Positions 12,185 through 21,712 of a DNA stretch of 32,319 nucleotides are shown piece by piece. The notes below the pieces were generated by a model. The model saw nothing but the letters and a program-made list of their open reading frames with translations, ran no database searches and was not told where the DNA came from. A program made the translations under genes and the position numbers. Location of the stretch: contig JAPLDU010000054.1 in the NCBI GenBank assembly GCA_026391255.1, positions 1 to 32,319 of the forward strand, in the 5' to 3' direction. Each line of letters begins with the position of its first letter. Within the stretch, counting starts at the first letter, position 1. Origin of the DNA: Bacteroidia bacterium. Its GTDB lineage: Bacteria; Bacteroidota; Bacteroidia; Bacteroidales; JAPLDU01.

Positions 12185-12431
12185 TTAGAAACGTTTTGAA
12201 TTTTTAAAAGTTCAAGTTATTGATATATTCAATTTTTACCCGCCCCTAACCCCTCCCTGCGAGCAAGGAGGGGAACTGATCCTTGCGAATTTCAGGCATA
12301 TTACATAGCGTACAAACCCCTCCCTGCCAGCAGGGAGGGGACAAAGGGGAGGGTTAAAAAATTATATAATATCAATCAGACAAATAAGATAATTTATTTA
12401 GTTTAATTTTAATATTCAAAACATTTTTAAG
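12185..12431 (+). mobile_element. MITE-like inverted-repeat element, copy 2
   Basis: Non-coding element of about 247 bases in the divergent gap between the lipoprotein and the TonB receptor. The left end TTAGAAACGTTTTGAATTTTT pairs with the right end AATATTCAAAACATTTTTAAG. Inside, TTTTTACCCGCCCCTAACCC pairs with GGGGACAAAGGGGAGGGTTA. Between these lie two GC-rich hairpins, CCCCTCC...GGAGGGG at about 12252-12275 and 12317-12340; the second stem is perfect. It is homologous to 26379-26610 and to the reverse complement of 1-122. No transposase reading frame is present. Confidence 0.65.
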
Positions 12432-12572: not shown

Positions 12573-12655
12573 GTGGGGAATTCCTATTATTCATATATTT
12601 ACAGATTTAATTTCAGGGATATTAGCCTATTATTGACATTCATAAACAGTGCATT

Positions 12656-15600
12656 ATGGTTAGAAAATTACTTTTTACATCAGTAAGTTTACTGTTCGTA
12701 CAGGCGTTGTTTGCACAAAGTGCGTTAAAAGGAAAGGTGGTTGATAAGGATACCAAGGAAGTTATCCCGTTTGCAAACGTAGTCATAGAATCTGAAAGCG
12801 GCAACCGGCTTGGCGGTGCAAGTTCCGACATCGATGGTATGTACACTATCAAACCGATTCCTGCAGGTAAGATCAATGTGAAAGCCTCCTGTATCGGCTA
12901 TGGTCCGTACCAGATGAACGGAGTGCAAATTCTTGCTGATAAAATTCAAATCCTCAATATTGATCTGAGTTCTACCACCAAAGAAATTCAGGAAGTCGTT
13001 ATACAGTCTTATAAGAACCCTCTTATCTCTGCTGATAACACTCAAACCGGAGTAACAGTGACCTCGGAGGATATCGCAAAAATGGCTGCCCGTAGTACGG
13101 ACGCTATCGCAATTCAAGCGGCAGGCGTCTATTCAGAGAATGGTGAGGTCGGTAGTATTCACGGTGCCCGTGCCAGTGGTAATGTTACCTATATTGATAA
13201 TATGAAGGTAATTGGTAACACAAGCCTGCCTAAATCGGCTATTGAAGAGGAGACCGTTATTACCGGAGGTCTTGATGCCAAATATGGGGATGCCACCGGT
13301 GGTATTACCAATATCACTACCAAAGGAGCTTCAAGCGAATTATACGGTGGAGTTGAATTTCTGACATCCCAGTATCTCGATCCTTATGGCTATAACCTGC
13401 TGGGAGTTACTCTTTCAGGACCACTATGGACAATAGATGATAAATCATCACCCGGCCATAAGAATGCCATTCTCGGGTATTTCTTTTCCGGCGAGGTTGG
13501 TTACGTGAAGGATGGCTCACCTTCTGCCATCAGTCTTTACCAGGTTAAGGATGATGTTCGTCAGCAGATCATTGATAATCCCCTTCGTGCCTTAGATGTT
13601 GGATCCGGTACAAACCTGAACGCTGAATTCCTCCACAGCGATGCATTTGAAAAAGTGAATGTGAAGAAAAATGCCGACAACAGATCCATCAACCTCTCAG
13701 GTAAAATTGATATTTCACCTTCCAAAAATCTTGGTATTGTGATCGGATTATCGGCAAACAGTTCCCGGAATGAAAACTGGAATTTTTCTAACAGCCTGTT
13801 TAACTGGGATAATAATTCCGAATCATATAATACCACTATGCGCGGATATGTGCGTCTTACCCAGAAATTCCCCAATAGTTCCGACGAAAAAGAAAAATCA
13901 CTGATCAGTAATGTATATTATTATATCCAGGCTGATTATGAGAGAGATTTCGGCCTGACATGGGACAAGCATCACCAGAATAATCTTTTCGACTATGGTT
14001 ACATGGGAAGATTCCAGACTTACAAAGCGCCTTCGTACAGTACTGACCTGAAGTATGATTCAATTACCGGGCTGTATGCTCATATTCAAGACAATAATTA
14101 TGATACACTTGTCAAATACACATACTCCAATGTGAACCCTTATTTAGCCAATTATACCCAGCGATATTTCGATCTTTTCGGCTCTAATCATTTCCTTACC
14201 ATGAATCCTGAACAGATACAGTTTGGTAAAGGCCTTCTTAACGGTGATGCCCCGGATGCTGTATATAGTATCTGGTATGTGCCCGGTGCGATTACAACCG
14301 GTTATTCAAAATATGATGACAACCAGTTTCGTGTATCAGCATCAGGTTCTGCAGATATCAAGGACCATGCAATTTCCTTCGGTTTTGAATTTGAAAAGAG
14401 AACATATAATGGTTATAATGTTGCTCCATATGGACTCTGGACTCTTGCCCGCGGGTTAATGAACAAACATATTCAACAGCTTGATGTGTTGAATCCCATT
14501 CCTGATTATCTGAAAGACCAGAACGGTAACTATGTCTATAATGACGATGGCAGCCGGGTGTTTATGGATACCATATCTTATAACAGACTATACAGCGCCC
14601 AGGATCAGGCGCTGTTTGATATTAAATTCAGGCAGCATCTTGGAAAACCAATCAATGGAACAGAATGGGTTGACCTGGATTCCTATGACCCGTCACAACT
14701 CAGTATTAATTATTTTGCTGCCGATGAATTATATAATAGTGGAAACTCCTATGTTAGTTACATGGGTTATGATCCTTACGGAAACCTGATTTCCAGGAAA
14801 CCCAGCCTGCAGGATTTCTTTTCTGCATCGGTAAGCGATGGTGGTAAACAATGGCCTACCCGTCTTATCGCACCCTATGAGCCTAATTATTCTGCCTTGT
14901 ATCTTCAGGATAAGTTTTCTTTTAACGACCTCATCTTCAATGTAGGTGTGCGTGTTGACCGTTTCGATGCCAATCAGAAAGTATTAAAAGATCCTTATAC
15001 ACTGTACGATGCTTTTAAAGCCGGCGATAGTGACGGAGGGAAATTGCTTGGTGGCGAGCGTCCTTCCAATATCGGTGACAATTATACCGTTTACGTGGAT
15101 AATGTTTCAAACCCCACACGAATCATGGGTTACCGCAATGGAAGTACCTGGTTTAACTCATCAGGCACAGAAATCAATGACCCCCAGACCATTGCCTCGG
15201 CTTCAGGAATTGCACCATATTTGGTTAAACCCGATGTCACCATGAGTTCGGATAATTATGATGTATCCATGTCATTTAAAAATTACGAGCCCCAGATCAC
15301 TGTGATGCCGCGTATTTCTTTTTCCTTTCCCATTTCCGACGTAGCTACTTTTTATGCCCATTATGATGTTTTGTCCACAAGGCCGGGAGACAATGTTTTA
15401 GATCCATCCAATTATCTCTTTTTCCAGGTCAGAAGCGCCGGTTTGATTTCAAACCCCGACCTGAAACCTGAGAAAACTGTTGACTATGCTCTCGGATTCC
15501 AGCAGAAACTGAATGCTACATCAGCTTTAAAACTTGAAGCTTATTACCGTGATATGCGCGACATGATTCAGCAAACCATGCTTTATGGCGCTTATCCTGA

Positions 15601-15784
15601 GTACAGGTACCGTACCTATAGTAATATTGACTTCGGAACCGTTAAAGGATTCACGGTTACTTATGATCTCAGACGAACAGGAAATGTAACTTTCCGTGGT
15701 TCATATACCCTGCAGTTTGCCAACGGAACAGGCTCAAATGCAGATGCAGCAGCCAGCCTTGTGAGTTCATTTCGATCAGGGTAA
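12656..15784 (+). CDS. TonB-dependent receptor, main part (gene broken near the 3' end)
   Basis: Outer-membrane TonB-dependent receptor. The signal peptide covers about residues 1-20 (ends VQALFAQ). A carboxypeptidase-regulatory-like beta-sandwich follows at about 23-110 (GKVVDKDTKEVIPFANV near the start). The plug domain lies at about 115-225, with SGNVTYIDNMKVIGNTSLPK and the ITGGLDAKYGDATGGITNI stretch typical of SusC-like and related receptors. A long barrel follows, including KPEKTVDYALGFQQK near 940. The frame stops at 15782-15784 after SLVSSFRSG, and the barrel continues in another frame from 15765. As written, the product would lack the last strands and the terminal Phe needed for barrel assembly. 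It begins the transcription unit with the T9SS cargo and the PorV-like gene. The ligand is unknown. Confidence 0.88.
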   Translation: MVRKLLFTSVSLLFVQALFAQSALKGKVVDKDTKEVIPFANVVIESESGNRLGGASSDIDGMYTIKPIPAGKINVKASCIGYGPYQMNGVQILADKIQILNIDLSSTTKEIQEVVIQSYKNPLISADNTQTGVTVTSEDIAKMAARSTDAIAIQAAGVYSENGEVGSIHGARASGNVTYIDNMKVIGNTSLPKSAIEEETVITGGLDAKYGDATGGITNITTKGASSELYGGVEFLTSQYLDPYGYNLLGVTLSGPLWTIDDKSSPGHKNAILGYFFSGEVGYVKDGSPSAISLYQVKDDVRQQIIDNPLRALDVGSGTNLNAEFLHSDAFEKVNVKKNADNRSINLSGKIDISPSKNLGIVIGLSANSSRNENWNFSNSLFNWDNNSESYNTTMRGYVRLTQKFPNSSDEKEKSLISNVYYYIQADYERDFGLTWDKHHQNNLFDYGYMGRFQTYKAPSYSTDLKYDSITGLYAHIQDNNYDTLVKYTYSNVNPYLANYTQRYFDLFGSNHFLTMNPEQIQFGKGLLNGDAPDAVYSIWYVPGAITTGYSKYDDNQFRVSASGSADIKDHAISFGFEFEKRTYNGYNVAPYGLWTLARGLMNKHIQQLDVLNPIPDYLKDQNGNYVYNDDGSRVFMDTISYNRLYSAQDQALFDIKFRQHLGKPINGTEWVDLDSYDPSQLSINYFAADELYNSGNSYVSYMGYDPYGNLISRKPSLQDFFSASVSDGGKQWPTRLIAPYEPNYSALYLQDKFSFNDLIFNVGVRVDRFDANQKVLKDPYTLYDAFKAGDSDGGKLLGGERPSNIGDNYTVYVDNVSNPTRIMGYRNGSTWFNSSGTEINDPQTIASASGIAPYLVKPDVTMSSDNYDVSMSFKNYEPQITVMPRISFSFPISDVATFYAHYDVLSTRPGDNVLDPSNYLFFQVRSAGLISNPDLKPEKTVDYALGFQQKLNATSALKLEAYYRDMRDMIQQTMLYGAYPEYRYRTYSNIDFGTVKGFTVTYDLRRTGNVTFRGSYTLQFANGTGSNADAAASLVSSFRSG

Positions 15785-16259
15785 AGCTTATAACGGCCCG
15801 AAACTCTGGGGTAAGGATATATTGCAGAACACGGGAGCTAATCTTACAATCCGTACCGGTTCAGGATCTCCCTACACTAAAACGGATATTGTTTCAGGTT
15901 CCATGCAGGGTTCACAGAACGGATCGCGCAAACCCTGGAGAACCGTTCTTGATCTCAGAGTTGACAGGGACATTGCTATTCATTTAAAAGGTGAGTCAAA
16001 GGCAATCAAAGAAATGAACCTGAATGTTTACCTTGAAATAACCAACCTGTTGAATACTCAAAATATAATCAACGTTTATAGTTCAACCGGGAATCCGAAT
16101 GATAATGGTTTTCTGGCGGCAGCTGCTAATCAACCTTTTATTAATTCCCAGGTTGATGCTGTTGCTTACAGAAATTATTATTCCATGGCTTACTTCAATA
16201 ATCCCGGATTTTATGGATTGCCCAGACAAATCAGGTTTGGTATCAGTTTAGGATTTTAA
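15765..16259 (+). pseudogene. TonB-dependent receptor, out-of-frame 3' part
   Basis: Continuation of the receptor at 12656 in a different frame, about 164 codons, open from just after a TGA at 15762. It reads HFDQGKAYNGPKLWGKDIL, then NTGANLTIRTGSGSPYTK, and ends with the barrel terminus RFGISLGF, including the C-terminal Phe. There is no good start; the first possible one is a TTG at 15822 inside the domain. From memory of related receptors, a short stretch (a Pro/Asn-rich turn followed by a DxRH strand, perhaps 25 residues) is normally found between the two parts and seems absent. A deletion plus frame change is therefore more likely than a single-base error. Assembly error cannot be excluded. 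Confidence 0.7.
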
Positions 16260-16293
16260 TTTATTGCATTACTGAAATTTAATATCAATAAAA

Positions 16294-19200
16294 ATGAAAA
16301 GTTTTAAGTTTTTCATCCCTCTCATCTTTTCAGCTTTCTTTCTGCAAGGTTTTTTATTTGCTGAAAAACTTGTTACCCTAGGTAATCCTCATAATAACTA
16401 TAAATCTACCGGTTCTGTTGCTTCCGGTTGTGTGATCCCCAGTACTCAGACAGAATTGCAGCTCAATAATGTGAGGGCGCTTATCATGACAGGTGGCGAT
16501 ATGTGGTGGGACCTGAAAGGCAAGGCCCAGTACGAAGTTCCCAAAGGATCGGGAAAGACCGCCCTTTTTGCCGGGGGAATATGGATTGGCGGAACTGACG
16601 TAAACGAACAGTTGAAACTTTGTGCTATCAGGTACCGCGAAAAAGGGACAGATTATTGGACAGGCCCTTTGATTGAATCAGGTCCTAACCGTGCAACTAC
16701 TTCTTCAGATGTTTGCCTGCAGTATGATAAACATTTTGATGTTACCCGTGATGAAGTAGCTAAATTCCGGGCATGGTTTGCCTCCACCCCGGCTGAAAGA
16801 GCTGCCAATTATCCGGGTTACGTGATCCCTGATGTGATCATTAACTGGCCTGCTCATGGCGATGTGACAAAAGGATATGACTACCACCTGGCACCGTTCT
16901 ATGATGCTAACGGTGATGATTATTATAACCCTTACGACGGTGATTATCCATTCTTCGACCTTGACGGTGCATTACCCTGCGGTACAACCCGTGAAAAACG
17001 GGTACCCCGTTTATTTGGGGACGAAACCCTCTGGTGGATCTATAATGACCGTGGAAATGTACATACCGACCCCACAGGAGATGCCATCGGAATGGAAATT
17101 CATGCCCAGGCATTTGCTTTTGCCACCAACGACGAGCTGAATAATATGACTTTTTATAATTATGCACTGATCAACCGGTCAACCTATACTCTTTTTAATA
17201 CCTATTTTGGTGTATGGACGGATGCTGATATGGGCTATGCCTTTGATGATTATGTAGGTTGCGATGTGAAACGCGGACTCGGCTATCTGTATAATGGCAA
17301 AGATGTTGATGGCACCGGACAATTATATGCTTATGGCGAACAGCCTCCGGCCATCGGAATGGACTTCTTTGAAGGTCCCTACCAGGACCCTGACAACCAG
17401 GATAATGCAAGCAGTTGGGATACCTTGACCGGTAATCTGAACTGCGATGCAAACATCATGAACGGTAATATCAACGGGTTGAACTTCGGAGATGGAATCG
17501 TGGATAACGAACGCTGGGGAATGAGGAGATACATTTATTTCAATAATTGTGCGTCTGGCGGTCAGTGCGACCCTCAGGAAGCCGTTGAATATTATAATTT
17601 TTTAAAAGGATACTGGAAGGATGGTACACAATTATTTTATGGTGGTACAGGTTATTGGTCCGATCCTAAAACGTCTACCATTCCGTCGGATTTTATGTTC
17701 CCCGGCGATACAGACCCATGTGGATGGGGTACGGCCGGTGCTCATCAGCAACCCTGGGATGAAAAAACTGAAGACAATCCTCCCGGTGACAGGAGGTTCG
17801 TGCAGTCGGCAGGTCCGTTTACCCTTGAACCAGGCGCTGTGAATGATATTACCATGGGCGCTGTGTGGGCAAGGGCAACCAGCGGAGGAGCTTTTGCTTC
17901 TGTGAAAGCCGTTCGGCTTGCAGATGATAAAGCGCAGTTACTCTTTGATAATTGCTTTAAAGTCGTGAACGGGCCCGATGCCCCCGAAATGCAGATCATT
18001 GAACTCAAAAACCAATTGGTATTCCATCTTTCTAACCTTCCATCATCCAATAATTACCTGGAAAAATACAAAGAAAAAGACTTTTCTATCCCTAATCAGG
18101 TTCTCGTAAAGGATACTCCAATTACTGTTAAGGATAAGTATTACAAGTTCGAAGGTTACCAGGTGTTCCAGTTAAAAGACTCTACTGTTTCTGTGACAAA
18201 TATACATGACGATAATCTTGCCCGGCTTGTTTTTCAGTGCGACATAAAAAATAAAGTATCCAAACTTGTGAATTTCACATGGTCAACTGACATGAATGCT
18301 AATGTACCTACGCTTGAAGCTTATGGCGACAGCATGGATCAGGGGATTAAACATACGTTTACCATTACGGAAGATATGTTTGCCACTGACGCCAAAACAC
18401 TGGTAAATTATAAGAAATATTATTACCTCGCTATAGCATATAGTTATAACAATTATATGCACTACGACCAGAATAATCCGGACAGTATCAATGGTCAGAA
18501 ATTACCCTATAAAGCCAGCCGGAAAGGAGCCACCGGAGCTATTAAAGCATATACAGCCATTCCACATTACAACACTCCGCAGAATGGAGGAACCATCATA
18601 AATGCCAGTTATGGCGCAGGCCCTATGATCACACAGGTGTGGGGCCGTAGCGGTGATTCTGTTTCTCTCGATCTTACCGATGAAACAATAAATGAAATAA
18701 TGACAGGAGACCCGTGGAAAGCTAACAATGTAACCTATAAAAACGGTTTTGGCCCTATAAATTTAAAAGTGGTCGACCCCCTTAATGTTCCGGACGGAAA
18801 TTACATGATCAAATTTGATACGGTGAATTATAACAAATATTTATTCAATATTTATGATTCAAAGTGGTACCTGGTGCAAATCAGCGGTTCTACTGCAATA
18901 GATACCATATATGCAGAATCATTGATAAGTTATGAAAATGAACAGATCATCCCGGAACTGGGACTATCTGTTACTATTACCAATTTGCCACAGAATCCTG
19001 ACCTGGGGAATCTGCAATTGAGCGTATTGCCCGCTACTCTGCAATACAGTAATGTATCAAAGGCATGGCTTTCCTTTTTGCCGGACGAGAATAATGCAAA
19101 TCCTTTTAACTGGATTCGTTCCGGAACTCAACATGACACAACTGATCTGCCACATAAAGACTATTATGTAGTAGGCTCCAGTTACGATAATAAATCTGCT

Positions 19201-20514
19201 TTTGGGAAAATACTGAACGGTACCTGGGCTCCATATAAATTGGTTTCTCATATCGAATGCGGATTGTCTTATGATTCAGCGGGTTGTTTTAGTTTGATTG
19301 ATTTCAGACACGAACGACTTGCCAGTATTAATGTCGTGTTGACCTCTGACAAATCAAAATGGACCCGCTGTGTTGTAGTGGAAACCAGTGAAAATGATAC
19401 TACAAATGCGGGTGTTCCAATCTCCGGAATGTCAGTTGAGCGTGGTGCCTTTAAATATGATATGCGCCGTTCTCCCTCAATAGATAAAGAAGGGAACTTT
19501 GCCACACCAGGTTCCGGCCCCAGTAATAACCCTGAGGATGCTAACTACATTGCCGATAACGGTATGGGTTGGTTCCCGGGTTATGCCATTGATGTGGAAA
19601 CAGGAGCAAGACTGAATTTAATGTATGGTGAAGCTTCCCAATTACCCAATGAAAACGGAAGGGACATGAAATGGAACCCAACACCCAATGTACTTACCAA
19701 ATTCGGCTGGACCAGTTATTATTCCGGATCAACAATAGCCAAAAGAGATATTTTATGGGGTGGTAAACATTTTATTTATATCATGGGTAATAACAACCAG
19801 CCCAAAGACAGTTTGCAAAACCAGTTCCCGTATATGCCTCCTTATGATGCAGGTAAGTACATTCAAAATCACTTTACAAGGTACAATTCAGCCCATACCT
19901 CAACTGAGAAAAAATTTAAACAAAGTATTTACAGGAATGCCATGTGGGTATCAATACCACTGCTAGTCAGTGATTATTCCACTATGACAATGGATCAGAT
20001 ACTGCAATTATCCGACATAAAAATAAAACTAAGAATTGCCAATCCTATAGCAGTCTCAGTAGCAACCCAGGCAGATCATCCTGACGAAGTGACCACTGAT
20101 GTTTTTGGAGCACCAGTATACATTAAATATCCTGAATACACATTCAGCACTTCTGATATTGCCACAAAGAAAAATGACAATAATGCAGCCAAGAGTGCAC
20201 TTGATCTGATTAATATTGTACCAAATCCATATTATGGTTATTCCCCTTATGAGAATAACCAACTGGATAACCTTGTCAAGATCACTAACCTGCCCCAGCA
20301 GTGTACCATCTCAATTTATAATGTAAATGGTACCCTTATCAGGAGATTCAAGAAAGACAGCGGGATTACCTACCAGGAATGGGATCTCAAGAACCAGTAT
20401 TCAATACCGATTGCAAGCGGTGTTTACATCATTTATGTAAAAGCCGACGGAGTAGGAGAGAAGGTGATCAAATGGTTCGGTGCATTGCGACCGGTCGACC
20501 TGAATGCTTTCTGA
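16294..20514 (+). CDS. large secreted protein with T9SS C-terminal sorting domain
   Basis: Protein of 1406 residues with a signal peptide (about 1-23, ending LQGFLFA). I do not recognise an enzymatic domain. The N-terminal region is rich in aromatic, Asp and Asn residues, and a calcium-loop-like DANGDDYYNPYDGDYPF sits at 204-220. Similar Asp/Asn-rich repeats occur at 310-380. The C-terminal 95 residues form a sorting domain: IVPNPYYGY, VKITNLPQQCTISIYNVNG, WDLKNQYSIPIASGVYIIYV and the tail GEKVIKWFGALRPVDLNAF. This predicts export by the type IX system and cell-surface display or release. It starts 34 bases after the receptor stop codon and ends 46 bases before the PorV-like gene, so the three are probably one transcript. 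The cargo's function is unknown. Confidence 0.88.
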   Translation: MKSFKFFIPLIFSAFFLQGFLFAEKLVTLGNPHNNYKSTGSVASGCVIPSTQTELQLNNVRALIMTGGDMWWDLKGKAQYEVPKGSGKTALFAGGIWIGGTDVNEQLKLCAIRYREKGTDYWTGPLIESGPNRATTSSDVCLQYDKHFDVTRDEVAKFRAWFASTPAERAANYPGYVIPDVIINWPAHGDVTKGYDYHLAPFYDANGDDYYNPYDGDYPFFDLDGALPCGTTREKRVPRLFGDETLWWIYNDRGNVHTDPTGDAIGMEIHAQAFAFATNDELNNMTFYNYALINRSTYTLFNTYFGVWTDADMGYAFDDYVGCDVKRGLGYLYNGKDVDGTGQLYAYGEQPPAIGMDFFEGPYQDPDNQDNASSWDTLTGNLNCDANIMNGNINGLNFGDGIVDNERWGMRRYIYFNNCASGGQCDPQEAVEYYNFLKGYWKDGTQLFYGGTGYWSDPKTSTIPSDFMFPGDTDPCGWGTAGAHQQPWDEKTEDNPPGDRRFVQSAGPFTLEPGAVNDITMGAVWARATSGGAFASVKAVRLADDKAQLLFDNCFKVVNGPDAPEMQIIELKNQLVFHLSNLPSSNNYLEKYKEKDFSIPNQVLVKDTPITVKDKYYKFEGYQVFQLKDSTVSVTNIHDDNLARLVFQCDIKNKVSKLVNFTWSTDMNANVPTLEAYGDSMDQGIKHTFTITEDMFATDAKTLVNYKKYYYLAIAYSYNNYMHYDQNNPDSINGQKLPYKASRKGATGAIKAYTAIPHYNTPQNGGTIINASYGAGPMITQVWGRSGDSVSLDLTDETINEIMTGDPWKANNVTYKNGFGPINLKVVDPLNVPDGNYMIKFDTVNYNKYLFNIYDSKWYLVQISGSTAIDTIYAESLISYENEQIIPELGLSVTITNLPQNPDLGNLQLSVLPATLQYSNVSKAWLSFLPDENNANPFNWIRSGTQHDTTDLPHKDYYVVGSSYDNKSAFGKILNGTWAPYKLVSHIECGLSYDSAGCFSLIDFRHERLASINVVLTSDKSKWTRCVVVETSENDTTNAGVPISGMSVERGAFKYDMRRSPSIDKEGNFATPGSGPSNNPEDANYIADNGMGWFPGYAIDVETGARLNLMYGEASQLPNENGRDMKWNPTPNVLTKFGWTSYYSGSTIAKRDILWGGKHFIYIMGNNNQPKDSLQNQFPYMPPYDAGKYIQNHFTRYNSAHTSTEKKFKQSIYRNAMWVSIPLLVSDYSTMTMDQILQLSDIKIKLRIANPIAVSVATQADHPDEVTTDVFGAPVYIKYPEYTFSTSDIATKKNDNNAAKSALDLINIVPNPYYGYSPYENNQLDNLVKITNLPQQCTISIYNVNGTLIRRFKKDSGITYQEWDLKNQYSIPIASGVYIIYVKADGVGEKVIKWFGALRPVDLNAF

Positions 20515-20560
20515 TCAGTGTGTTAAATAATCGAATTCGAATTTTTCAAAAAATACAGAT

Positions 20561-21649
20561 ATGTTGACAGCAGAAAAATCACGGATGTTTTCGTGGCACA
20601 AAACAGCGATTCAACTTACGGTAACAGCTTTTACATTGATCTTACTGTTTCCGGTTTTCTCCTTTGCCGGTAACGAACAACGCGCCGGTCAGGCAGGCGC
20701 CGGTGAGTTATTGATCAATCCATGGGCCAGGAGTACGGGATGGGGCGGAGCCAATACTGCTTATGCACAAGGCCTTGAAGCTATTTTTCTCAATGTGGCC
20801 GGCACTGCTTTTACCCCGCACACTGAATTAATATTTGCCCACACTACCTGGCTTACTAATTCAGGTGTGGCACTTAATTCATTCGGTTTTTCCCAGAAAA
20901 TGGGCGAAGCCGGTGTTCTTTCCCTGGCAGTAATGACAGTCGATTTTGGTGAAATTAATGTTACAACCGTTGATCTCCCTGAAGGAGGTATCGGAACTTT
21001 TCATCCTCAGTATACCAACATCTCGTTAGCCTATGCCAAGGAATTTTCGAATAGTATTTATGGTGGTCTTACTATAAAAATATTGTCGGAAAAAACATCC
21101 AATACTGCTGCCAGTGGAGTGGCTCTTGATGCAGGCATTCAGTATGTCACAGGTTCCGACCGGCAGATCAGGTTCGGTATTACCATGAAAAATGTCGGCC
21201 CTACCATGAAATTCTCAGGTGACGGTTTATCATTTCGCGGCGATGTGCCTTTAACCGGTGTCAGCCTTACCGTTGAGCAACGTTCGGCCGAATATGAACT
21301 TCCCTCTCTTATCATGATTGGCGGATCTTATGATTTTAATATTTCTGAACGTCATAAACTGACATTGGCCGCTAACTTTACTTCCAACTCATTCACCAAT
21401 GATCAGTATCATATTGGTCTTCAGTATGCTTATAATGATATCCTGTTTCTCAGAGGTGGATATGTATACGAAAAAGGAATAAACAGTACTGATGAACGTA
21501 CAACTGTATTTACCGGTCCGACAGCAGGTATATCCATTCAGGTACCATTGAACACTGAAAAAGGATCTGTCTTTTCTATCGATTATTCATACCGGGCCAC
21601 AAATCCATTCAGCGGTGTTCACAGTATCGGAGCCAGGGTGAGTTTATAA
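20561..21649 (+). CDS. PorV/PorQ-family outer-membrane protein
   Basis: Beta-barrel protein of 362 residues related to PorV (LptO) and PorQ, which move T9SS cargo from the translocon to the attachment complex. The signal peptide covers about residues 15-36 (ends FPVFSFAGNEQ). The family start motif is recognisable as AGAGELLINPWARSTGWGGA, then EAIFLNVAGTAF near residue 70, corresponding to the usual D-A-ALYWNPAGLA. The chain is regular amphipathic strands and ends SIGARVSL. It is the last gene of the unit that contains the 1406-residue cargo and is followed by a strong terminator. It is likely to be a paralogue dedicated to this cargo rather than the housekeeping PorV, but this is inference from position. 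Confidence 0.8.
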   Translation: MLTAEKSRMFSWHKTAIQLTVTAFTLILLFPVFSFAGNEQRAGQAGAGELLINPWARSTGWGGANTAYAQGLEAIFLNVAGTAFTPHTELIFAHTTWLTNSGVALNSFGFSQKMGEAGVLSLAVMTVDFGEINVTTVDLPEGGIGTFHPQYTNISLAYAKEFSNSIYGGLTIKILSEKTSNTAASGVALDAGIQYVTGSDRQIRFGITMKNVGPTMKFSGDGLSFRGDVPLTGVSLTVEQRSAEYELPSLIMIGGSYDFNISERHKLTLAANFTSNSFTNDQYHIGLQYAYNDILFLRGGYVYEKGINSTDERTTVFTGPTAGISIQVPLNTEKGSVFSIDYSYRATNPFSGVHSIGARVSL

Positions 21650-21674
21650 AAATATTCATATTTTTGCAGCATAA

Positions 21675-21712
21675 GAAAAGGGTCCCGGAATCCCGGGATT
21701 CTTTTTTGTTTT
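21675..21712 (+). terminator. Rho-independent terminator after the PorV-like gene
   Basis: The arms AAAAGGGTCCCGG and CCGGGATTCTTTT pair over about 13 positions, two of them G-T. The tail CTTTTTTGTTTTTA is T-rich. It lies 25 bases past the stop codon and closes the receptor-cargo-PorV unit. Confidence 0.85.

Follow-up and report, generated by a model that had tools for sequence, protein, structure and literature searches.

A TonB-dependent receptor, a T9SS cargo with a predicted PorZ-like CTD and a PorV-family barrel recur and duplicate together across Bacteroidota

Introduction

PorV collects type A substrates of the T9SS at SprA (PMC10994853), and a 2025 paper holds that type A CTDs are all recognized by PorV (PMC12618676). 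Why, then, should a PorV-family outer-membrane barrel be encoded directly beside a single large T9SS cargo and a TonB-dependent receptor? Cargo-specific T9SS barrels are already published: type B cargos have PorP/SprF barrels of their own (PMC9143113, PMC12618676), and PorQ anchors PorZ, whose CTD is retained, at the surface (PMC5562754). According to a review, cognate PorV-like barrels may shield certain CTDs from cleavage (PMC10202324). We analyzed a stretch of 32,319 nucleotides from a Bacteroidia genome (hereafter the window), in which the first-pass annotation had proposed that the receptor, cargo and barrel genes form a dedicated export unit, with the barrel serving as a cargo-specific shuttle or anchor. 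In a search of open-access journal articles, we found no paper describing this triad.

Results

Organization of the locus

The three genes lie on one strand in the order receptor, cargo, barrel, as first annotated, and the annotated spacings are confirmed: 34 bases between receptor and cargo (16259 to 16294), 46 bases between cargo and barrel (20514 to 20561). The corresponding gaps in 19 relatives are 19-61 and -11 to 120 bases, and those of the window are normal for the family. The claimed terminator is likewise present as a strong terminator-like hairpin, with greA and a HIT gene located downstream of it. The claimed promoter did not hold up: sigma-70-like sites are found 38 times against 32.9 (sd 4.8) in shuffled sequences, which is chance level, and the site closest to the start (12633-12660) overlaps the ATG. 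The promoter was therefore rejected. Two alike G+C-rich palindromic stretches (CCCCTCCCTGC...GCAGGGAGGGG-like) are found 5' of the receptor gene, at positions 12240-12350 of the window.

Table 1. Features of the receptor-cargo-barrel locus (positions in the window)
Feature	Position	Strand	Basis
TonB-dependent receptor, main open part (CarboxypepD_reg, plug, most of barrel)	12656..15784	+	Pfam PF13715, PF07715
Receptor C-terminal part, in a different frame after a ~77-base deletion	15771..16259	+	Aligns to C-terminus of intact relatives
T9SS cargo, 1406 aa, with signal-peptide-like N-terminus and CTD	16294..20514	+	Full-length relatives; CTD profile
Predicted cargo beta-supersandwich region, about residues 42-558	16417..17967	+	AlphaFold2 model, structure match
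Predicted PorZ-like cargo CTD, about residues 1296-1398	20179..20487	+	Structure match to PorZ 5m11; PorZ profile
Conserved C-terminal tail ALRPVDLNAF, past where type A CTDs usually end	20482..20511	+	Kept in relatives
PorV-family outer-membrane barrel, 362 aa	20561..21649	+	NF033709
Terminator-like hairpin, then T run	21674-21707	+	15 pairs, of which 6 are G-C

Of the three genes annotated, the cargo and the barrel are open, whereas the receptor is not one continuous frame: it stops early, and its remainder is read in another frame. Compared with the closest relative, about 77 bases (~26 codons) are absent together with a frameshift, and the lost stretch corresponds to SGQPNLRTL..PL..D.RH.......DYRF in intact orthologs. 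The deletion may be genuine or may come from misassembly. Besides the window receptor, the genome encodes no full-length member of this family; receptors of other triads from the same taxonomic order are open or are cut solely by contig ends. Elsewhere, the receptor of a triad at L089:4195-7976 is likewise split across several frames, with the cargo and barrel open. The profile search matched none of the window's three triad proteins to SusC or SusD, and the receptors of distant triads match TIGR04056 (SusC family) partially and below its cut-off. The locus thus lacks the SusC-family receptor and SusD neighbor that mark a SusCD importer.

Cargo protein and its CTD

The cargo aligns with full-length relatives at 43-58% identity. 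Its predicted beta-supersandwich region (mean pLDDT 87.6) resembles that of dextran dextrinase 9ju0 (Z 19.3, rmsd 3.1 over 254 residues). An enzymatic role was considered and dropped, because the match is confined to the beta-supersandwich domain, with none to an (alpha/alpha)6 domain. The middle of the protein (about residues 560-1290) gave no clear fold among the matches listed, which is a slight test.

The predicted model of the CTD has a T9SS CTD fold and is closest to PorZ 5m11 (Z 11.4, rmsd 1.9 Å over 88 residues); other T9SS CTDs among the matches listed reach Z 7.3 at most (mirolase 7.3, PorU 7.2, NucA 6.6). Scores for TIGR04183 (cut-off 23) are 22.5 bits for the whole protein and 23.8 bits for its C-terminal part, and the profile search found no match to the type B CTD profile (TIGR04131) in the cargo. 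In this genome, the PorZ profile scores highest with the true PorZ (contig 46, 668 bits); the next best CTD matches are an orphan cargo paralog on contig 31 (35.3 bits) and the window cargo (33.5 bits). The window cargo is not itself a PorZ equivalog, as its CTD alone matches and the score is far under the full-length cut-off of 260; a low score is expected if this one domain alone is shared. The PorZ profile is also matched by 43 of 58 cargo relatives and by 6 of 8 cargos of other lineages. By profile and predicted fold, the cargo CTD is PorZ-like, a likeness that concerns one domain and is read from a model and from sub-threshold scores.

The cargo does not end ~4-6 residues after the conserved lysine, as type A CTDs do, and carries about ten further conserved residues. 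This tail is absent from 30 other CTDs of the same genome. Among relatives, it reads RPxDLNxF in most Bacteroidales and differs in other lineages. Triad barrels fall into two clades (see below); the cargos of the larger one extend ~ten residues past the point where type A CTDs usually end, and 13 cargos paired with the second lack the tail. Because the barrels of these tail-less cargos group together with full support, tail and barrel clade are linked through a single evolutionary split. The tail may play a role in barrel binding, which we offer as a hypothesis. As a universal barrel signal it was ruled out by the tail-less cargos of the second clade and by orphan cargos, which often retain it.

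The paralog on contig 31 (L038:1981-6192) is a second full-length cargo in the same genome without an adjoining receptor or barrel; its tail is shortened, ending in VLKWAGVIRK, and its CTD is as PorZ-like as that of the window cargo. Three loci encode shorter T9SS-type proteins of about 520-620 aa (L064:4671-6281, L065:5502-7358 and L066:5451-7010), with a cargo-like N-terminal part and ordinary CTDs at the end.

PorV-family barrel and other T9SS components

The barrel, which may start some codons downstream of position 20561, belongs to the PorV/PorQ family NF033709 by score (153.7 bits against a curated cut-off of 90). It stays below the equivalog cut-offs for PorV (67.8 against 250), PorQ (67.5 against 220) and PorV2 (50.4 against 325), and, judged by these profiles, fits no named equivalog. 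At 25.1 bits against a cut-off of 90.55 for PorP/SprF (TIGR03519), it is not scored as a type B shuttle. Weak matches to UPF0164 and TraF_2 were also found. In the phylogenetic tree, PorV and PorV2 fall outside the two supported clades formed by the triad barrels; PorQ has a long branch, which makes its placement uncertain.

The genome has one PorV, one PorQ and one PorV2 at other loci, and the window barrel is therefore not its PorV. The first-pass annotation had noted that its proposal would fail if this barrel were the only PorV of the organism, which is not the case. The genome further encodes SprA, PorZ and at least 150 type A CTDs. Its SprA gene (contig 122, 1684-9049; L277, L278) is in two pieces that lie in different frames and meet near 2500, and may be broken or misassembled. 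The true PorV, on contig 146 (L060:909-6140), has as neighbors a PorP/SprF-family barrel and a 909-aa cargo of type B, which together resemble a SprB-SprF pair.

Taxonomic distribution of the triad

A scan of named genomes identified 80 loci with cargo relatives in Bacteroidales, Flavobacteriales and others, of which 57 contain the full triad; in all, 119 non-redundant triads were assembled. Hits include records of Fluviicola and Lentimicrobium. In a set of 60 genomes of the same taxonomic order, the barrel is present in 24, all of which (24/24) also have the cargo. The barrel family is discrete in this set, every score being above 350 bits or below 70 save for one contig-cut fragment. The receptor family is also found in 24 genomes, which are nearly the same ones. 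The exceptions are G013, with a receptor end alone at a contig edge, and G022, with receptor and cargo pieces but without the barrel. Wherever neighborhoods from this order are long enough, receptor, cargo and barrel follow one another in one order, mostly together with greA and HIT.

In a sample of the whole phylum, 100 of 296 genomes carry the barrel family, and 19 of the 20 loci fetched contain the triad, the remaining one being cut by a contig end. The first-pass annotation had asked for such a search for co-occurrence, with non-recurrence in other genomes counting against it; instead, the triad recurs phylum-wide. Beside the triads of sampled lineages outside Bacteroidia, we did not find greA and HIT.

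Cargo paralogs without an adjoining receptor and barrel exist as well. They were discarded as an argument against the triad, as most such genomes carry a complete or contig-cut unit elsewhere; in three of them (G061, G064 and G077) no unit was seen elsewhere in the genome.

Joint inheritance and duplication

Six genomes have several barrels, and 19 of the 20 copies fetched from them lie in a triad of their own, the last being cut by a contig end. For 22 triads of multi-copy genomes, correlations between the pairwise distances of the three proteins are 0.90-0.93. Shuffling partners within genomes reduced r to about 0.04, and 0 of 5000 shuffles reached the observed correlation; since the shuffling stayed within each genome, species descent does not explain it. 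The nearest paralog in another genome is identical for all three proteins in 94 of 110 comparisons. In 75 units with greA, partial correlations of 0.70-0.82 are left once GreA is controlled for. Co-duplication of the barrel is as tight with the receptor as with the cargo. The three genes are thus inherited and duplicated jointly across the phylum; joint inheritance is what the distances show, and binding is not thereby implied. Duplication of the whole triad argues strongly for a dedicated unit.

Discussion

Alternative explanations

The adjacency of the three genes could be a mere consequence of a conserved chromosomal region around greA, with no functional link between them. Indeed, the block adjoins greA and HIT in most loci of Bacteroidia. 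However, distant lineages in our sample have the triad without these two genes, so its gene order is not a by-product of the greA neighborhood. Together with duplication as a unit and the correlation of its members beyond GreA, this contradicts the explanation, which we regard as highly improbable. The barrel might instead be a second general PorV that serves many cargos, in which case its place beside one of them would be meaningless; its PorV/PorQ family membership and the very many type A CTDs of the genome speak for such a role. Against it stand the separate PorV of the genome and the copy-by-copy match of paralogous barrels, each with its own cargo and receptor, which largely contradict this explanation and leave it with little probability.

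A more serious contender, although an unlikely one, takes the barrel for a FadL-type diffusion channel that works with the receptor on a hydrophobic ligand, while the cargo is an ordinary type A protein that is handled by the common PorV and only binds the ligand outside. PorV is a FadL homolog (PMC12578637), UPF0164 and TraF_2 match the window barrel weakly, and the co-duplication of receptor and barrel is no looser than that of cargo and barrel. On the other hand, the family score of the barrel is that of PorV/PorQ, and the cargo CTD appears to be of the PorZ kind, which is held by a PorV-family barrel.

Proposed mechanism

We consider it rather likely that the barrel is a dedicated carrier and anchor of its cargo. 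The cargo would be exported via the general T9SS translocon SprA, and its PorZ-like CTD would be handed to its own PorV-family barrel rather than to the common PorV. The CTD would then remain bound to the barrel, uncleaved, so that the barrel acts as both carrier and lasting anchor, in the way that PorQ serves PorZ and SprF serves SprB. Of the two roles initially proposed, shuttle or anchor, the dedicated nature of the unit is upheld, and a PorQ-PorZ-like anchor is favored over a transient shuttle because the cargo CTD is PorZ-like. The triad suggests a private carrier and anchor for one secreted protein in place of the shared PorV.

Several observations weigh against the carrier-anchor reading: the published statement that type A CTDs are recognized by PorV (PMC12618676), the confinement of PorZ likeness to the CTD, the missing tail in the second triad clade, the orphan cargo paralogs and the broken receptor of the window.

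The barrel and its cargo probably serve the receptor. Alongside the TonB receptor with which it is inherited, the anchored, mostly-beta cargo could serve capture and import as an outer subunit, with the beta-supersandwich region perhaps binding a carbohydrate or similar ligand. Tentatively, we raise the possibility of a T9SS-built importer, distributed phylum-wide and separate from SusCD, in which a TonB receptor works with an external subunit that is delivered via the T9SS and held by a private PorV-family barrel. If true, the triad would connect T9SS export with TonB-dependent uptake. A barrel that co-duplicates with one cargo across a phylum also offers many natural pairs for studying carrier choice and CTD retention.

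Comparison with known systems

By analogy, the triad fits the dedicated-barrel principle, its barrel being of the PorV family and its cargo CTD PorZ-like. The attachment complex PorQ-PorZ (PMC5562754, PMC10202324) similarly combines a PorV-family barrel with a surface protein whose CTD is of the same kind. However, PorZ has beta-propellers and delivers A-LPS, whereas the window cargo has a predicted beta-supersandwich region and matches PorZ by its CTD only; moreover, the triad includes a TonB receptor, and the genome has its own PorZ and PorQ. In SprB-SprF and PG1035-PorP (PMC9143113, PMC12618676), the cargo is also encoded beside its own outer-membrane barrel, but those systems pair PorP/SprF barrels with type B CTDs, in contrast to the PorV-family barrel and the apparent type A, PorZ-kind CTD found here. 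The PorV shuttle (PMC10994853) shares the barrel family and, apparently, type A substrates with the triad; it serves type A cargos generally, whereas the window barrel falls short of the PorV cut-off and has been duplicated along with one cargo. Finally, SusCD and other importers built from a TonB receptor and a lipoprotein resemble the role proposed here, in that a TonB receptor and an external protein are encoded alongside each other; unlike in SusCD, the window receptor has no SusC match, a SusD neighbor was not found, and the external protein of the triad bears a T9SS CTD.
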